NCBI GenBank assembly: GCA_020058285.1
Contig: JAGVEL010000009.1
Location: 1 to 48,092 of the forward strand
DNA: 48,092 nucleotides
Direction: 5' to 3'
DNA from: Candidatus Omnitrophota bacterium
Lineage (GTDB): Bacteria; Omnitrophota; Gorgyraeia; JAHJTE01
The notes under the pieces were generated by a model that saw nothing but the letters and a program-made list of their open reading frames with translations, ran no database searches and was not told the DNA's origin. Shown in pieces: positions 379-10,098 of the stretch. Each line of letters starts with the position of its first letter. The stretch's first letter is position 1. Made by a program: the position numbers and the translations under genes.

Positions 379-454
379 GTAACCTTGTAAGTAAACAGAA
401 TTTCGGGTATACTTTAAGAAGCCGATAAAGGTAAACCTAGAGAAATCTAGGGAC

Positions 455-496
455 CCAGGCAAAGTTTTAAGTGTTTTTGTCTTAAACTTCGTCTGG
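455..496. repeat. palindromic element copy 1 (inverted orientation), inside riboswitch
   Basis: CCAG...CTGG hairpin with AAGTTTTAAG/CTTAAACTT arms; reverse complement aligns with 497-537. Confidence 0.55.
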
Positions 497-537
497 CCCG
501 GCGAAGTCAAACACGATAAGTATTTTACGAAGCCGGG
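497..537. repeat. 41-bp palindromic element copy 2, inside riboswitch
   Basis: CCCGGCGAAGTCAAACACGATAAGTATTTTACGAAGCCGGG; aligns without gaps to 724-764. Confidence 0.7.
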
Positions 538-659
538 GCAAAGCCGCAAACCTGTAGCTGCGAGGCCCGAAATCCCGATTTTATCGGGAGAAGGCATGCA
601 GTATGGTGGTTGGGCTGCCGAATGGCGAAACGCTCGCCTTTATCGGCTTTCTTATTTAG

Positions 660-687
660 ACGCTCAAGATGCTTTGAGCGTTTTTTT
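660..687 (+). terminator. Rho-independent terminator
   Basis: ACGCTCAA-GATGCT-TTGAGCGT stem-loop followed by a T-tract. Confidence 0.88.
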
Positions 688-723
688 ATTCGCCCAAAAC
701 ATCTAAATTCTGTCAGCGAATAA

Positions 724-764: not shown

Positions 765-831
765 TAATTCAGTGGTTAATTTTCAATTGTATATTGCCAA
801 GATTAATTACAGATGGTAGAATGACTTCACT

Positions 832-2226
832 ATGAGCAAATACGATGTGGCAATAATTGGTTCAGGTCCAGCAGGTTATGTTGCCGGCATAAGACTAAGC
901 CAATTAGGTAAAACTGTTTGCGTCCTGGAGACGTCCCAAGAGCGCTTAGGCGGCGTTTGCCTTAACGAAGGCTGCATTCCTACCAAATCTTTAATCAATA
1001 CTGCTGAGATTGTTGATATTGCGAAAGCTTCTGGAAAATCAGGCCTTGATTTAGAACTGAAATCCCTGGATTTTAATAAAATGGTTGCTGCTGCCCTTGG
1101 AAATAGTGCTAAGTTGCGTAGCGGTATAAGCTTTTTATTCAAAAAAAATAAAATTGACCTGATTATTGGTCAGGCTAGTTTTAAATCAGCAAAAACCTTA
1201 AATGTCATTAGCGACGGAAAGAATCAGGAGATTTGCGCTGACTATTTTTTAATTGCAACTGGTTCGCGGCCTAAAGTATTAACTGGTTTAGAGCCGGATG
1301 GAAAGAGGGTTCTAATCAGCCCGGATATTTTTAAGCTCAAAATTCTACCTAAAAATATACTTATAATCGGCGCTGGCGCTATTGGCGTTGAATTTGGCTG
1401 GTTATTTCAGACATTAGGCTCAAAAGTTACGCTTGTAGAAGTTACTAATCAAGTTTTGCCACTTGAAGATGCTGATATTGCTTTAGAAATTACTAAGTAC
1501 CTTAAAAAAAGAGGCGTGCAGATTTATACAGAAAGCAAAGTTGCTAAACTTGAGAAAAATGAAGATATCTGTAAGGTAGAAATAAAAACCGCAAATTCAG
1601 ATATAAAAAGAGAATTTGATTATTGTTTACTTTGTGTTGGACGAAGCGCTAATATAGAGAATCTTGGCTTAGAGCAACTTGGCGTTGAAATGGATAAGGG
1701 TTTTATTAAGGTTAATTCTCATATGCAGACAAGCCAGTCTCATATTTATGCAGCTGGGGATTGTATTAATTCACCAATGCTCGCCCATGTTGCTTCAGCT
1801 GAAGGCATAGTCGCGGCAGAGGCAATTTGCGGTAAAAATCCCCAAGCCTTGAATTATGATAATATACCTTCTGCGGTTTATTCAGCGTTTCAAGTCGGAA
1901 GAGTAGGCTTGACTGAAAAGGCAGCCAGGGAAAAGGGATTAGATATAGCTATTAGTAAGCATTTCTTCAAAGCCTGCGGCAAAGCAGTGCTTTTAGGTAA
2001 AGACGAAGGATTTGTTAAGATTATTGCAGAGAGAAATATTGGCCAGATTATCGGCGTTCATATTGTCGGGCCTGAAGCAAGTGAATTAATCCACGAGTTT
2101 GTGATTGCCAAGAACAATAATTTAAAAATTCAGGATATTGCTAACACAATTCATTCCCACCCAACACTTTCCGAAATAGCTGTTGATGCAGCAAAAGCAG
2201 TATTTGATAAACCGATTCATGGATAA
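832..2226 (+). CDS. lpdA: dihydrolipoyl dehydrogenase
   Basis: FAD GxGxxG N-terminus, GGVCLNEGCIPTKSL redox-active disulfide, C-terminal HSHPTLSE. Confidence 0.95.
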   Translation: MSKYDVAIIGSGPAGYVAGIRLSQLGKTVCVLETSQERLGGVCLNEGCIPTKSLINTAEIVDIAKASGKSGLDLELKSLDFNKMVAAALGNSAKLRSGISFLFKKNKIDLIIGQASFKSAKTLNVISDGKNQEICADYFLIATGSRPKVLTGLEPDGKRVLISPDIFKLKILPKNILIIGAGAIGVEFGWLFQTLGSKVTLVEVTNQVLPLEDADIALEITKYLKKRGVQIYTESKVAKLEKNEDICKVEIKTANSDIKREFDYCLLCVGRSANIENLGLEQLGVEMDKGFIKVNSHMQTSQSHIYAAGDCINSPMLAHVASAEGIVAAEAICGKNPQALNYDNIPSAVYSAFQVGRVGLTEKAAREKGLDIAISKHFFKACGKAVLLGKDEGFVKIIAERNIGQIIGVHIVGPEASELIHEFVIAKNNNLKIQDIANTIHSHPTLSEIAVDAAKAVFDKPIHG

Positions 2227-3780: not shown

Positions 3781-4416
3781 ATGAATTATACAGATTTTCG
3801 TAATAAATTCCAGCATTTGCCTATTATTGCCAGTAAAGATGTGGTTAGGCTTGAAAAAGGCAAACAGGCTATGCGCAATCAGTTTAATCGCTGGCAGAAT
3901 AAAGGCTTGCTTATTCAATTAAAACGCGGTTTATATGCGCTTAATGAAAATGACCGAAAAGTAGGCCTGAATTTTCATTCTATTGCTAATAATCTGTATG
4001 CTCCTTCGTATATCAGTTTAGAGACAGCATTAAATTTTTATGGCCTTATTCCGGAAAGGACAGTTGACTTGACCTCTGTAACTACTAAAAAAACCGCAAT
4101 TTTTAAAAATAAATTAGGAACTTTTATCTACCAGCATATTAAGCCCGGCGTGTTTAGGGGTTTTAAGGAGGTTAAGGATAATTCCGGTTATTCATTTTTT
4201 ATCGCTGAGCCTGAAAAAGCGGTTGTTGATTTTCTTTATTTGAACTTGAGCAAATTTAAAACAGAAGACCAGGATATTTTCGAAATCTCTTATCGTTTTC
4301 AAAATGTTGAAGGGTTGAAGGCCTTGAGGATTTTAGAGCAAGCTGATTTGTTTAACAACTCAAAACTTGTAAAGGTATGCCAGAATTTCTGCAAATTTAT
4401 TAAGGAAGGTGCATAA
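3781..4416 (+). CDS. AbiEi-type antitoxin / transcriptional regulator
   Basis: N-terminal winged-helix (LKRGLYALN), YISLETALNFYGLIPE motif; adjacent AbiEii-type gene. Confidence 0.85.
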   Translation: MNYTDFRNKFQHLPIIASKDVVRLEKGKQAMRNQFNRWQNKGLLIQLKRGLYALNENDRKVGLNFHSIANNLYAPSYISLETALNFYGLIPERTVDLTSVTTKKTAIFKNKLGTFIYQHIKPGVFRGFKEVKDNSGYSFFIAEPEKAVVDFLYLNLSKFKTEDQDIFEISYRFQNVEGLKALRILEQADLFNNSKLVKVCQNFCKFIKEGA

Positions 4417-4417
4417 A

Positions 4418-5218
4418 ATGATTGAAGTTTTTAAGCAACAGTTTACGCCAAATATGCCAACAGAGGAGAAGATTAATAAGGTACGCGAGCTTCTGCAGAT
4501 TATGGCTTTAAAAATTATCTATGATAAAGATTATTTTAATAATCTCGCTTTTGTTGGAGGCACTGCCTTAAGGTTTTTATATAATTTAAGGCGTTTTTCT
4601 GAAGATCTTGATTTTTCACTCATTTATAAAAATAACTATAATTTTAAGAAAATTAATTCTGAGATTATTGATGGGTTTAGCGGTTTTGGCCTAGACATAG
4701 AAACAAAACCCAATGATCAGAAAAATGTCCACAGTACAATGATGAAATTCAAAGGTTTATTAAAGGCGCTTGAGCTTTCTAATTTAGGGGAACAAAAGCT
4801 TTCTATTAAACTCGAGATAGATACAAATCCGCCAGAAGGCTGGAATACTGAAACTAGCATCGTTAATAAGACATATCTTTTGAATATTGTTCACTTTGAT
4901 TTGCACTCTTCTTTTGCTACCAAATTACATGCATGTTTTTATCGTAAGTTTGTTAAGGGTAGGGATTTTTATGACCTCATTTGGTATCTGGGCAAAAAAA
5001 TCAGTCCAAATTTTGTATTATTAAATAATGCCATTACGCAAACCGAGGGCAAAAATCCCGGCATAGATGAAGATAACTTTAAAAGTTTCCTCTTGGAAAA
5101 TTTGAAGCAAATTGACCTTAGTAAAGCAAAGAGTGATGTTGAAAGGTTTTTGGAGGATAAAAGCGAGCTTAAATTTTTTAATTTTGAGGCAATCAAAAAT
5201 TCAATTGAATCATCTTAA
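4418..5218 (+). CDS. AbiEii/AbiGii-type nucleotidyltransferase toxin
   Basis: FVGGTALRFLYNLRRFSEDLDFSL and KGRDFYDLIW motifs; ATG 4418 likely start. Confidence 0.88.
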   Translation: MIEVFKQQFTPNMPTEEKINKVRELLQIMALKIIYDKDYFNNLAFVGGTALRFLYNLRRFSEDLDFSLIYKNNYNFKKINSEIIDGFSGFGLDIETKPNDQKNVHSTMMKFKGLLKALELSNLGEQKLSIKLEIDTNPPEGWNTETSIVNKTYLLNIVHFDLHSSFATKLHACFYRKFVKGRDFYDLIWYLGKKISPNFVLLNNAITQTEGKNPGIDEDNFKSFLLENLKQIDLSKAKSDVERFLEDKSELKFFNFEAIKNSIESS

Positions 5219-7717: not shown

Positions 7718-7945
7718 ATGGAGGGTATCTTGAACAATCACAGGATGACAATAACCGATGTCGCGGAGCGAATTGGCGTCACTCCCAAGACTATTGTCCG
7801 CTGGGAGAAGTCAAAAAAGGTCACCGTGCCTAAACGAGATTGGCGCGGTTGGCGGGTTTACGACAAAAATGACTTAAAGAGATTAAAGGACTTTAAAGAA
7901 ACGATAATTTATTTCGAGGAGGATGGCAATGGACAAGATAGTTAG
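7718..7945 (+). CDS. MerR-like HTH DNA-binding protein
   Basis: MTITDVAERIGVTPKTIVRWEKSKKVTVPKRDWRGWRVYDKNDLKRL; alternative TTG start at 7730 after GGAGGG. Confidence 0.8.
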   Translation: MEGILNNHRMTITDVAERIGVTPKTIVRWEKSKKVTVPKRDWRGWRVYDKNDLKRLKDFKETIIYFEEDGNGQDS

Positions 7946-8759
7946 ATTCTGCGTATTTATTTTAATGTTTTTATTAGTTTTTAATTGCGCCTGGGCAGCT
8001 GAAGAAAACCTGCCAAAGCAAAACTTTAACCTGCCAGAAGCTGGTGATAATCCTCAGCAAAGCGCTGAATCAACAGCTGGGCAAGCAGGGCCATCTCCGG
8101 ATCAACTGCTGGAGGTCGCTAAAGAAAGCGTAATAAATTTTACAGATATGACCAATTACACCCTAGGGGCAGAAGATGTCATACAAGTAGATGTCCAGCG
8201 CCATCCGGAGTTTAGCGGAATATTTCCCGTAAACTTAGATGGAAAGATTCAATATAAATTCGCCGGCGACATTGAAGTTACAGGCCTAAATAAAAAAGAA
8301 TTGGAAGATAAGATAAAGAATACGATTTCCGTTTATATAATTAATCCCGATGTTACTGTTACTATTTTGGATTATAAAAGCAAAGTAATCTACGTTTTAG
8401 GTGAAGTTGGCCAGCCTGGCAAATATTTTATGCGCGCCGAATCAATGCCGGTAAGAGAGGCAGCTGTTCTGGCAGGGCTTCCAACATTGTCCGCTGCAAT
8501 GCGCCGTTGCCAACTCATAACACCGGATAAATCCGGCAAAGCGAAAATAAAATATGTAGATTTGTATTCCTTATTATACGGTGGCGATTTGACTAAGAAC
8601 ATAGATATGCATGCCGGAGATGTGTTATACGTGCCGGCAACTGTAATGGCTAAAGTAATGCGGATCATCAGCCCTGTTACACAGCCTGTAATTCAAGCTG
8701 GCTCTGCAGCAACCGGAACAACTTCTACCAAGGCAGCTATAAATGCTTTACCTAGATAA
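7923..8759 (+). CDS. polysaccharide export outer membrane protein (Wza/EpsE-like)
   Basis: signal peptide, YTLGAEDVIQVDVQRHPEFSGIFPVNLDGKIQYKFAG poly_export motif, SLBB-like domain. Confidence 0.88.
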   Translation: MAMDKIVRFCVFILMFLLVFNCAWAAEENLPKQNFNLPEAGDNPQQSAESTAGQAGPSPDQLLEVAKESVINFTDMTNYTLGAEDVIQVDVQRHPEFSGIFPVNLDGKIQYKFAGDIEVTGLNKKELEDKIKNTISVYIINPDVTVTILDYKSKVIYVLGEVGQPGKYFMRAESMPVREAAVLAGLPTLSAAMRRCQLITPDKSGKAKIKYVDLYSLLYGGDLTKNIDMHAGDVLYVPATVMAKVMRIISPVTQPVIQAGSAATGTTSTKAAINALPR

Positions 8760-8793
8760 TAAACGATTATGCGCTTAACCGGAGATAAATGAG

Positions 8794-10098
8794 ATGGAAA
8801 TTAAAGAGTTCATTAAGAAACGCAATCCGTTAGACTATCTAAAAATTTTCTTCAGGAGAAAATGGCTATTCATAACTCCTGTATTTATCGGGCTTGTTTT
8901 AAGTATTATGGCAGCATTCTTATTGCCGCCAACTTTTCAATCTTCTACGGTAATCCTGGTAGAAGAGGAAAAGTCCATAAATCCCCTAATGGAAGGCTTA
9001 GCCGTTGCCACCACGACTGTCCAGAGAATGATTAATATAAGAGAACAAATCTTGGGATGGGAAAGCCTGGTAGAATTGACCAAAAAATTGAATTTAGGCA
9101 ATGATGTCCGGACCCAACATGATTTTGAGCAACTTATCCTGGGACTAAGGAGAAATATCGTTGTTGGCATGCGTGGTCCGAACATTATACAGATTTCCTA
9201 CTTCGGCAAAGACCCAAAAACTACTCAGCAGGTTGCCCAGACTCTGACCGACATCTTGATTGAGCAGAATATGCGTTCTCAAACCAAAGAAACCGACGTA
9301 GCAATACAGTTTATAAATGAACAATTAAAAGTCTATAAAAGAAAAATTGAAGAATCTGAAATCGCCAAGATGGAAGACCAATTGAAAAACTTGCTTGTTG
9401 ACTCAACAGAAGAACATCCGCTGGTTAAGGATTTACGCGCTAGGATTGCTGCTGCCAGAAAAGAACTCGGGCCGGCTGACGAAGATTTTGCAACCGAAAA
9501 ACCCATTGCCAACCCGGTTTACCAAAAACTTCAAAAGGAATTGGACCAGATAGTTCAAGAGCAGGTCGCTACTACAGAAGGCTCAGCGCTTGCTGCAGAA
9601 GATATAGGCGTTAATGATCCTAATGCCAAAATATATAAATTAATGCTGATGGATAAATTGGATTCTGTGCTAGCAAGGGATATGCGTGTAAATGAAAATA
9701 TTTACAATATGTTGTTACAAAAACTAGAAACTGCAAAGATTACGCAGCGTTTACAAACTTCAAAAGAAGGCACTCGCTATGAAATTATTGATCCGCCGAG
9801 ATTACCCTTAAGTCCTTCAAAGCCAAATAAACTTTTAGTAATTTTCTTAGGGTTATTTTTTGGGAGCTGCTCTGGAGTGGGCTTAGTCTTTGGAAAAGAA
9901 TTTATGGATAATTCATTTCTAGATATTGAGGATGCTAAGTCTAACCTGGAATTGCCGGTTTTAGGCGCAATCTCGCGCATTACTACTCAAGAAGAGATTG
10001 AAAAGGAAAAATCTCGGCAGAGAAAAATTTTTATTATCACAATAGTAGTTGGTGGAACGCTTATTCTGATTACGATGTTTGTGTCGTTTTTCAGGTAA
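8794..10098 (+). CDS. Wzz/GumC-like chain-length determinant
   Basis: two TM ends, coiled-coil centre, PPRLPLSPSKPNKLLVIFLGLFFG. Confidence 0.88.
   Translation: MEIKEFIKKRNPLDYLKIFFRRKWLFITPVFIGLVLSIMAAFLLPPTFQSSTVILVEEEKSINPLMEGLAVATTTVQRMINIREQILGWESLVELTKKLNLGNDVRTQHDFEQLILGLRRNIVVGMRGPNIIQISYFGKDPKTTQQVAQTLTDILIEQNMRSQTKETDVAIQFINEQLKVYKRKIEESEIAKMEDQLKNLLVDSTEEHPLVKDLRARIAAARKELGPADEDFATEKPIANPVYQKLQKELDQIVQEQVATTEGSALAAEDIGVNDPNAKIYKLMLMDKLDSVLARDMRVNENIYNMLLQKLETAKITQRLQTSKEGTRYEIIDPPRLPLSPSKPNKLLVIFLGLFFGSCSGVGLVFGKEFMDNSFLDIEDAKSNLELPVLGAISRITTQEEIEKEKSRQRKIFIITIVVGGTLILITMFVSFFR

Follow-up and report, generated by a model that had tools for sequence, protein, structure and literature searches.

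An Omnitrophota contig (the window, a stretch of 48,092 nucleotides) carries a riboswitch-like sequence ahead of lpdA and lipA, which raises the question of what a c-di-GMP-binding RNA would do at this position. Riboswitches are usually defined as cis leaders, and the original prediction for this locus was a c-di-GMP-I (GEMM-I) riboswitch placed before lpdA-lipA as its regulatory target. A ligand pocket kept under strict selection while the neighbouring genes change would, by comparison, represent an RNA receptor for a second messenger that is independent of any one gene.

The c-di-GMP-I motifs proposed for the leader were all present where they had been placed, and the aptamer assignment was borne out for positions 420-623 by matches to RF03167 and RF01051 and by the pocket bases. 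An Rfam scan of the whole window returned no family at its gathering score. A permissive scan of 380-840 gave c-di-GMP-I-GGC (RF03167) as the best family (421-623, 24.4 bits, E 0.0014), and RF01051 split its match into two, scoring 24.9 bits over 420-464 and 22.8 bits over 521-622. The score most likely falls below the gathering value because of an 83-nt insert, whose predicted limits of 455-537 proved exact: it sits precisely between GGGAC and GCAAAGCC, beside the ligand pocket, and its omission joins the two. Several relatives without the insert exceed the gathering score, and the window RNA illustrates how an aptamer expanded by hairpins beside its pocket escapes Rfam. The class-specific covariance model R1 recovered the RNA from its source genome, with a score (Table 1) that is not independent because the window sequence was among the 11 used to build the model. 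The fold of 415-690 has a predicted energy of -114 kcal/mol (z = -7.3), equalled by none of 200 shuffles. The alignments to RF03167 and R1 show the secondary structure of the c-di-GMP-I aptamer, namely P2 with its GAAA loop, an internal loop and P3. The ligand-contacting bases G20, A47 and C92 correspond to G430, A540 and C618. Riboswitches for cGAMP (GEMM-Ib) have A instead of G at position 20, so G430, the equivalent of G20 in Vc2, predicts c-di-GMP rather than cGAMP as the ligand; across the family the position is G in 72 of 73 rows. The identities of the contact bases follow PMC9049102 and PMC11218506, and their mapping onto the alignment is our own. Judged by sequence and predicted fold, the window RNA is a real c-di-GMP-I aptamer of the riboswitch type.

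Table 1. Features of the closed RNA and its immediate surroundings, in window coordinates.
Feature	Positions	Strand	Basis
RNA promoter (predicted), TTGTAA-17-TATACT, ending 6 nt upstream of the RNA's first base	385-413	+	
P0 5' strand AAGCCGATAAAGG, containing J1/2 and the G20-equivalent G430	419-431	+	complementarity, covariation
Closed c-di-GMP RNA, whole unit	420-649	+	R1, 86.1 bits, E 2e-21
P2 hairpin, GAAA tetraloop at 442-445, then GAC at 452-454	436-451	+	alignments to RF03167 and R1
J2/3 insertion, two hairpins: 455-496 (CCAG..CTGG) and 497-537 (CCCGGC..GCCGGG)	455-537	+	
GCAAAGCC; G538-C539 closes P2, A540 is the A47 equivalent	538-545	+	A in 75/75 rows
P3 and distal extension; tetraloop receptor-like CCTGTAG (551-557) and TATGG (602-606)	542-616	+	
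GCCGAA; C618 is the C92 equivalent	617-622	+	C in 75/75 rows
P4 hairpin GGCGAAACGCTCGCC, linking the aptamer to the P0 3' strand	624-638	+	read from sequence
P0 3' strand CCTTTATCGGCTT	637-649	+	complementarity to 419-431, covariation
Intrinsic terminator of the RNA	658-687	+	11 pairs, T-run
Separate lpdA promoter (predicted), TTGCCA-17-TAGAAT, TG before the second hexamer	794-822	+	10/12 matches
lpdA-type dihydrolipoamide dehydrogenase, neighbour	832-2226	+	Pfam Pyr_redox_2, Pyr_redox_dim

Two kinds of feature absent from the original prediction alter the picture of the locus. The first is a helix, P0: positions 419-431 are completely complementary to 637-649, and within them 421-430 (GCCGATAAAG) to 637-646, so that the two ends of the RNA are joined and the G that contacts the ligand is buried. 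Because J1/2 and the G20 equivalent lie within P0, formation of the helix and ligand binding by the aptamer would be mutually exclusive. The second is a pair of separate predicted promoters, one for the RNA and one ending 10 nt before the lpdA ATG. With the strong terminator, which was already part of the original prediction, the RNA has its own promoter-like and terminator-like signals, as expected of an independent transcript, although they are predictions from sequence and an ordinary riboswitch of the terminator type would show promoter, aptamer and terminator in the same order.

Evidence for P0 comes from relatives of the window RNA. Over 75 aligned rows, 96% of cells held a P0 pair and 7 of its 11 base pairs had compensatory, two-sided changes (for example GACCGATAAAG/CTTTATCGGTC and AGCCCGAAAAGG/CTTTTCGGGGCT), a level of pairing and covariation reached by none of 500 shuffles. 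Because this alignment had been fitted to R1, P0 was also checked in records selected on their 5' half alone. There the 3' complement, counted as present at a complementarity of at least 9/10, occurred in 57 of 62 Omnitrophota-type records versus none of 18 others with the same 5' sequence (Firmicutes, Chloroflexi, Calditrichota, Spirochaetota and others), the groups being assigned by record title; one of the 57 is titled Elulimicrobium, which NCBI places elsewhere, and two of the five Omnitrophota-type records lacking P0 are truncated because their stretch ends there. The helix belongs to the minimum-energy fold of 120 of the 123 family loci, and freeing J1/2 from it costs a median of 8.1 kcal/mol in silico. 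The aptamer Kd of 0.011 nM (11 pM) quoted in PMC9049102 corresponds, by our own conversion, to roughly 15 kcal/mol, and the modelled cost of opening P0 would thus lie within reach of c-di-GMP binding by such an aptamer. The pocket bases are nearly invariant across the family, the G20 equivalent being kept in 72 of 73 rows and those of A47 and C92 in all 75. Together, P0 and a near-invariant pocket are what a two-state sensor predicts.

The family was assembled from a class-wide search for the 3' signature, with matches read by eye. The first pattern, TGCCGAAN{5,34}TTATCGGC, gave a mixed set with many matches inside genes, yet it yielded the first members, 11 of which were used for R1 (variable P3 tips trimmed; P2 one pair shorter in three). 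R1 matched in 241 of 292 genomes of the class, a count that includes ordinary c-di-GMP-I elements, the high scores being mostly of the closed, P0-bearing type; in a phylum-wide sample, 53 of the 55 genomes with R1 matches at E below 1e-15 belonged to this same class. Pooling R1 and pattern matches left 123 distinct loci, which are drawn from related genomes and clades and are not independent of one another. At 86 of these a -10 hexamer ends 5-8 nt upstream of where P0 begins, and 109 have a -10 box within 22 nt; among the class's ordinary c-di-GMP-I loci, 16 of 72 do. We take the window RNA, on this comparative evidence, to be a member of a class-wide Omnitrophota family of putatively self-closing c-di-GMP-sensing RNAs, which offers a testable function in a candidate phylum; in the literature library searched, no paper mentioned riboswitches together with Omnitrophota. 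Four of the ordinary, control loci have a P0-like helix, and at least one of them, L286, is really a closed-family member. Another of the four, L011 (G019:C106:18922-19010), looks like an ordinary cis c-di-GMP-I riboswitch with a same-strand downstream gene and bears the P0-like helix CTCGAAAAAGG / CCTTTTTCGAG; an evolutionary link is possible.

The source genome itself holds a second expanded RNA (L009, C9:16.1-16.4 kb) that shares the ends of the window RNA (GCCGATAAAG and TTTATCGGC), hairpins at the J2/3 position and a terminator, and the layout in the window is therefore no accident. Its neighbours are a purB-like gene, which is divergent, and a pilin gene, which is convergent; no same-strand gene lies directly behind it. 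Two extra hairpins interrupt its J1/2 between ATAAAG and GGGCAAAC, at the ligand site itself, and this copy may not bind the ligand.

Genes downstream of the family are diverse. At 117 loci, where downstream genes were called by a crude longest-ORF rule, the encoded proteins fell into 58 clusters with 45 singletons, and the window was the one locus with lpdA downstream. Where family members follow the same trpF gene, the genes behind them belong to about nine clusters, and some of these genes are on the opposite strand. Overall the downstream gene lies on the other strand at 29 of 117 family loci versus 10 of 69 ordinary c-di-GMP-I loci (p = 0.13); where the gene upstream is itself reversed, so is the downstream one at 17 of 28 versus 4 of 16 (p = 0.03). 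Gene orientation was set aside as strong proof of autonomy, the difference being weak overall and clearer in this subset. Some clades keep one downstream gene, a GH1 gene in 16 loci and a zinc-ribbon-like protein in 12. Five of the GH1 loci (L066, L107, L130, L131 and L149) have a second terminator, TCCCAAC..GTTGGGA, before GH1, and several have a TATAAT-like box between that terminator and the gene. At L116 and 10 related loci, all of one clade, the 3' end of the RNA abuts a convergent gene whose receiver-GGDEF-MshEN product is predicted to be a c-di-GMP enzyme or receptor.

For the window, the RNA belongs to a class-wide family with its own promoter, a lock helix and usually a terminator, and control of lpdA or lipoate metabolism therefore lacks good grounds. 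The aptamer half of the original prediction stands; its regulatory half, with an intervening terminator, a separate predicted lpdA promoter and lpdA unique to this locus, is unsupported, if not wrong. We favour an effect exerted by the RNA over control of lpdA-lipA, and on balance we think that the window RNA is a self-contained c-di-GMP RNA with two states, P0 closing it in the absence of ligand and binding leaving it open. Transcription would start at the first base of P0 from the promoter-like site, and the aptamer would be made first. Co-transcriptional binding of c-di-GMP would lock the 5' strand within the aptamer, so that P0 could not form; with no ligand, P0 would close the RNA over a buried pocket. 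Such an RNA would act as a two-state reporter of c-di-GMP with its own transcription unit. Its effect probably comes from the RNA molecule as such, through RNA stability or through exposure of the CCUUUAUCGGC strand in trans; at some loci read-through or antisense action may be alternatives. More tentatively, and at somewhat less than even odds in our estimate, the whole class may possess free-standing, end-locked c-di-GMP RNAs working in trans, or as stable RNAs gated by the ligand, and not as gene leaders. To our knowledge, this would be the first such use of the c-di-GMP-I aptamer.

Among the alternatives, an ordinary cis-acting c-di-GMP-I ON switch on an unusual platform survives best, though we regard it as unlikely. 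P0 and a following U-tract would then form the ligand-free terminator, and binding would give read-through into the downstream gene, here lpdA-lipA. About three quarters of downstream genes are indeed on the same strand, a U-rich tail, with 7 or more U in 12 nt, comes after P0 at 80 of 123 loci, and the GH1 and zinc-ribbon clades do retain their downstream gene. A precedent exists in Bc1 of Bacillus, a c-di-GMP-I switch whose two terminators are separated by 28 bp (PMC11218506). Against read-through, however, the window has a second strong terminator followed by the predicted lpdA promoter, and a second terminator hairpin follows P0 at 61 of 123 loci, where shuffles predict 2.4. Moreover, -10-like hexamers are in excess in the gap to a same-strand gene (34 of 41 versus 19 expected), 29 of 117 downstream genes are reversed, and the downstream gene varies while the RNA stays behind trpF.

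Convergent neighbours suggest a different possibility, in which ligand-bound read-through would generate an antisense RNA to the facing gene and thereby c-di-GMP feedback. Antisense-acting c-di-GMP-I riboswitches have already been proposed (PMC9943018), L009 faces a pilin gene, and at the 11 loci of the receiver-GGDEF-MshEN clade no more than about 80 nt (mostly <30) separate the end of the RNA from the convergent gene, so that feedback of this type is possible there. As a general account it is improbable: a convergent gene is present at just 29 of 117 loci, outside this clade most such genes show no obvious connection with c-di-GMP, and the window, where the next gene is on the same strand, falls outside its reach.

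The insert at 455-537 bears on whether the window RNA is functional at all. Unrelated hairpin inserts of 32-110 nt occupy the same J2/3 spot in about 10 of 74 family loci, and the window insert has no second copy elsewhere in the source genome, which rules it out as a dispersed mobile repeat. With different hairpins at one spot and an unrepeated insert in the window, the junction next to A47 seems permissive, and the insert hairpins would appear to be expansions there and not proof of inactivation. That the RNA is a decaying relic, a c-di-GMP riboswitch broken by repeat insertion, is very improbable: the insert does split the Rfam match and adjoin the pocket, and a palindrome with similar arms lies at 718-770, but promoter, P0, pocket bases and terminator are all intact, the inserted sequence is unique in the genome and the junction accepts other hairpins, while the second copy and the class-wide family rule out a one-off relic. 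The palindrome, GAATAACCCGCCGAAGC..GCGAAGGCGGGTAATTC, lies between the terminator and the lpdA promoter and has arms similar to 497-537; it is possibly a short palindromic element.

Compared with known systems, the two-state RNA retains the core of the c-di-GMP-I aptamer (GEMM-I; RF01051, RF03167), including the P2 GAAA loop, the P3 receptor and the equivalents of G20, A47 and C92. The family adds P0 over J1/2, a promoter directly at the 5' end, a long P3 extension and, in some members, J2/3 hairpin inserts, and it lacks a conserved target gene. The trans-acting riboswitch RNAs SreA/SreB and Rli55/EutX have SAM and B12 as ligands. They carry an aptamer on a terminated RNA able to act off-locus (trans-acting examples noted in PMC7266159), as the Omnitrophota RNA may do, but their ligands differ and trans action of the Omnitrophota RNA is something we infer. 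ModT, the raiA motif RNA, was likewise first taken for a cis riboswitch and acts in trans (PMC11706538); the likeness lies in a conserved, structured RNA with uninformative synteny, whereas its structure is unrelated and its ligand is unknown. Bc1 of the Bacillus cereus group shares the c-di-GMP-I aptamer, a long platform and two terminators, the second of which masks its ligand response, but the gene downstream of it is always mcpE, and no helix like P0 joining its ends has been described (PMC11218506).

Beyond the two expanded RNAs, the source genome encodes six GGDEF proteins and four ordinary c-di-GMP-I elements, three on contig C25 and one on C53. By our reading of the sequences, two of the three C25 elements lie among prepilin or pilus-assembly-like genes and the C53 element precedes a gene for a secreted surface-like protein. 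Elsewhere in the window, an AbiEii nucleotidyltransferase toxin gene (3781-5218) is preceded by an ORF named AbiEi-like antitoxin by resemblance, with no Pfam match, and polysaccharide export (Poly_export) and Wzz/GNVR chain-length genes at 7923-10098 make up a surface polysaccharide locus.
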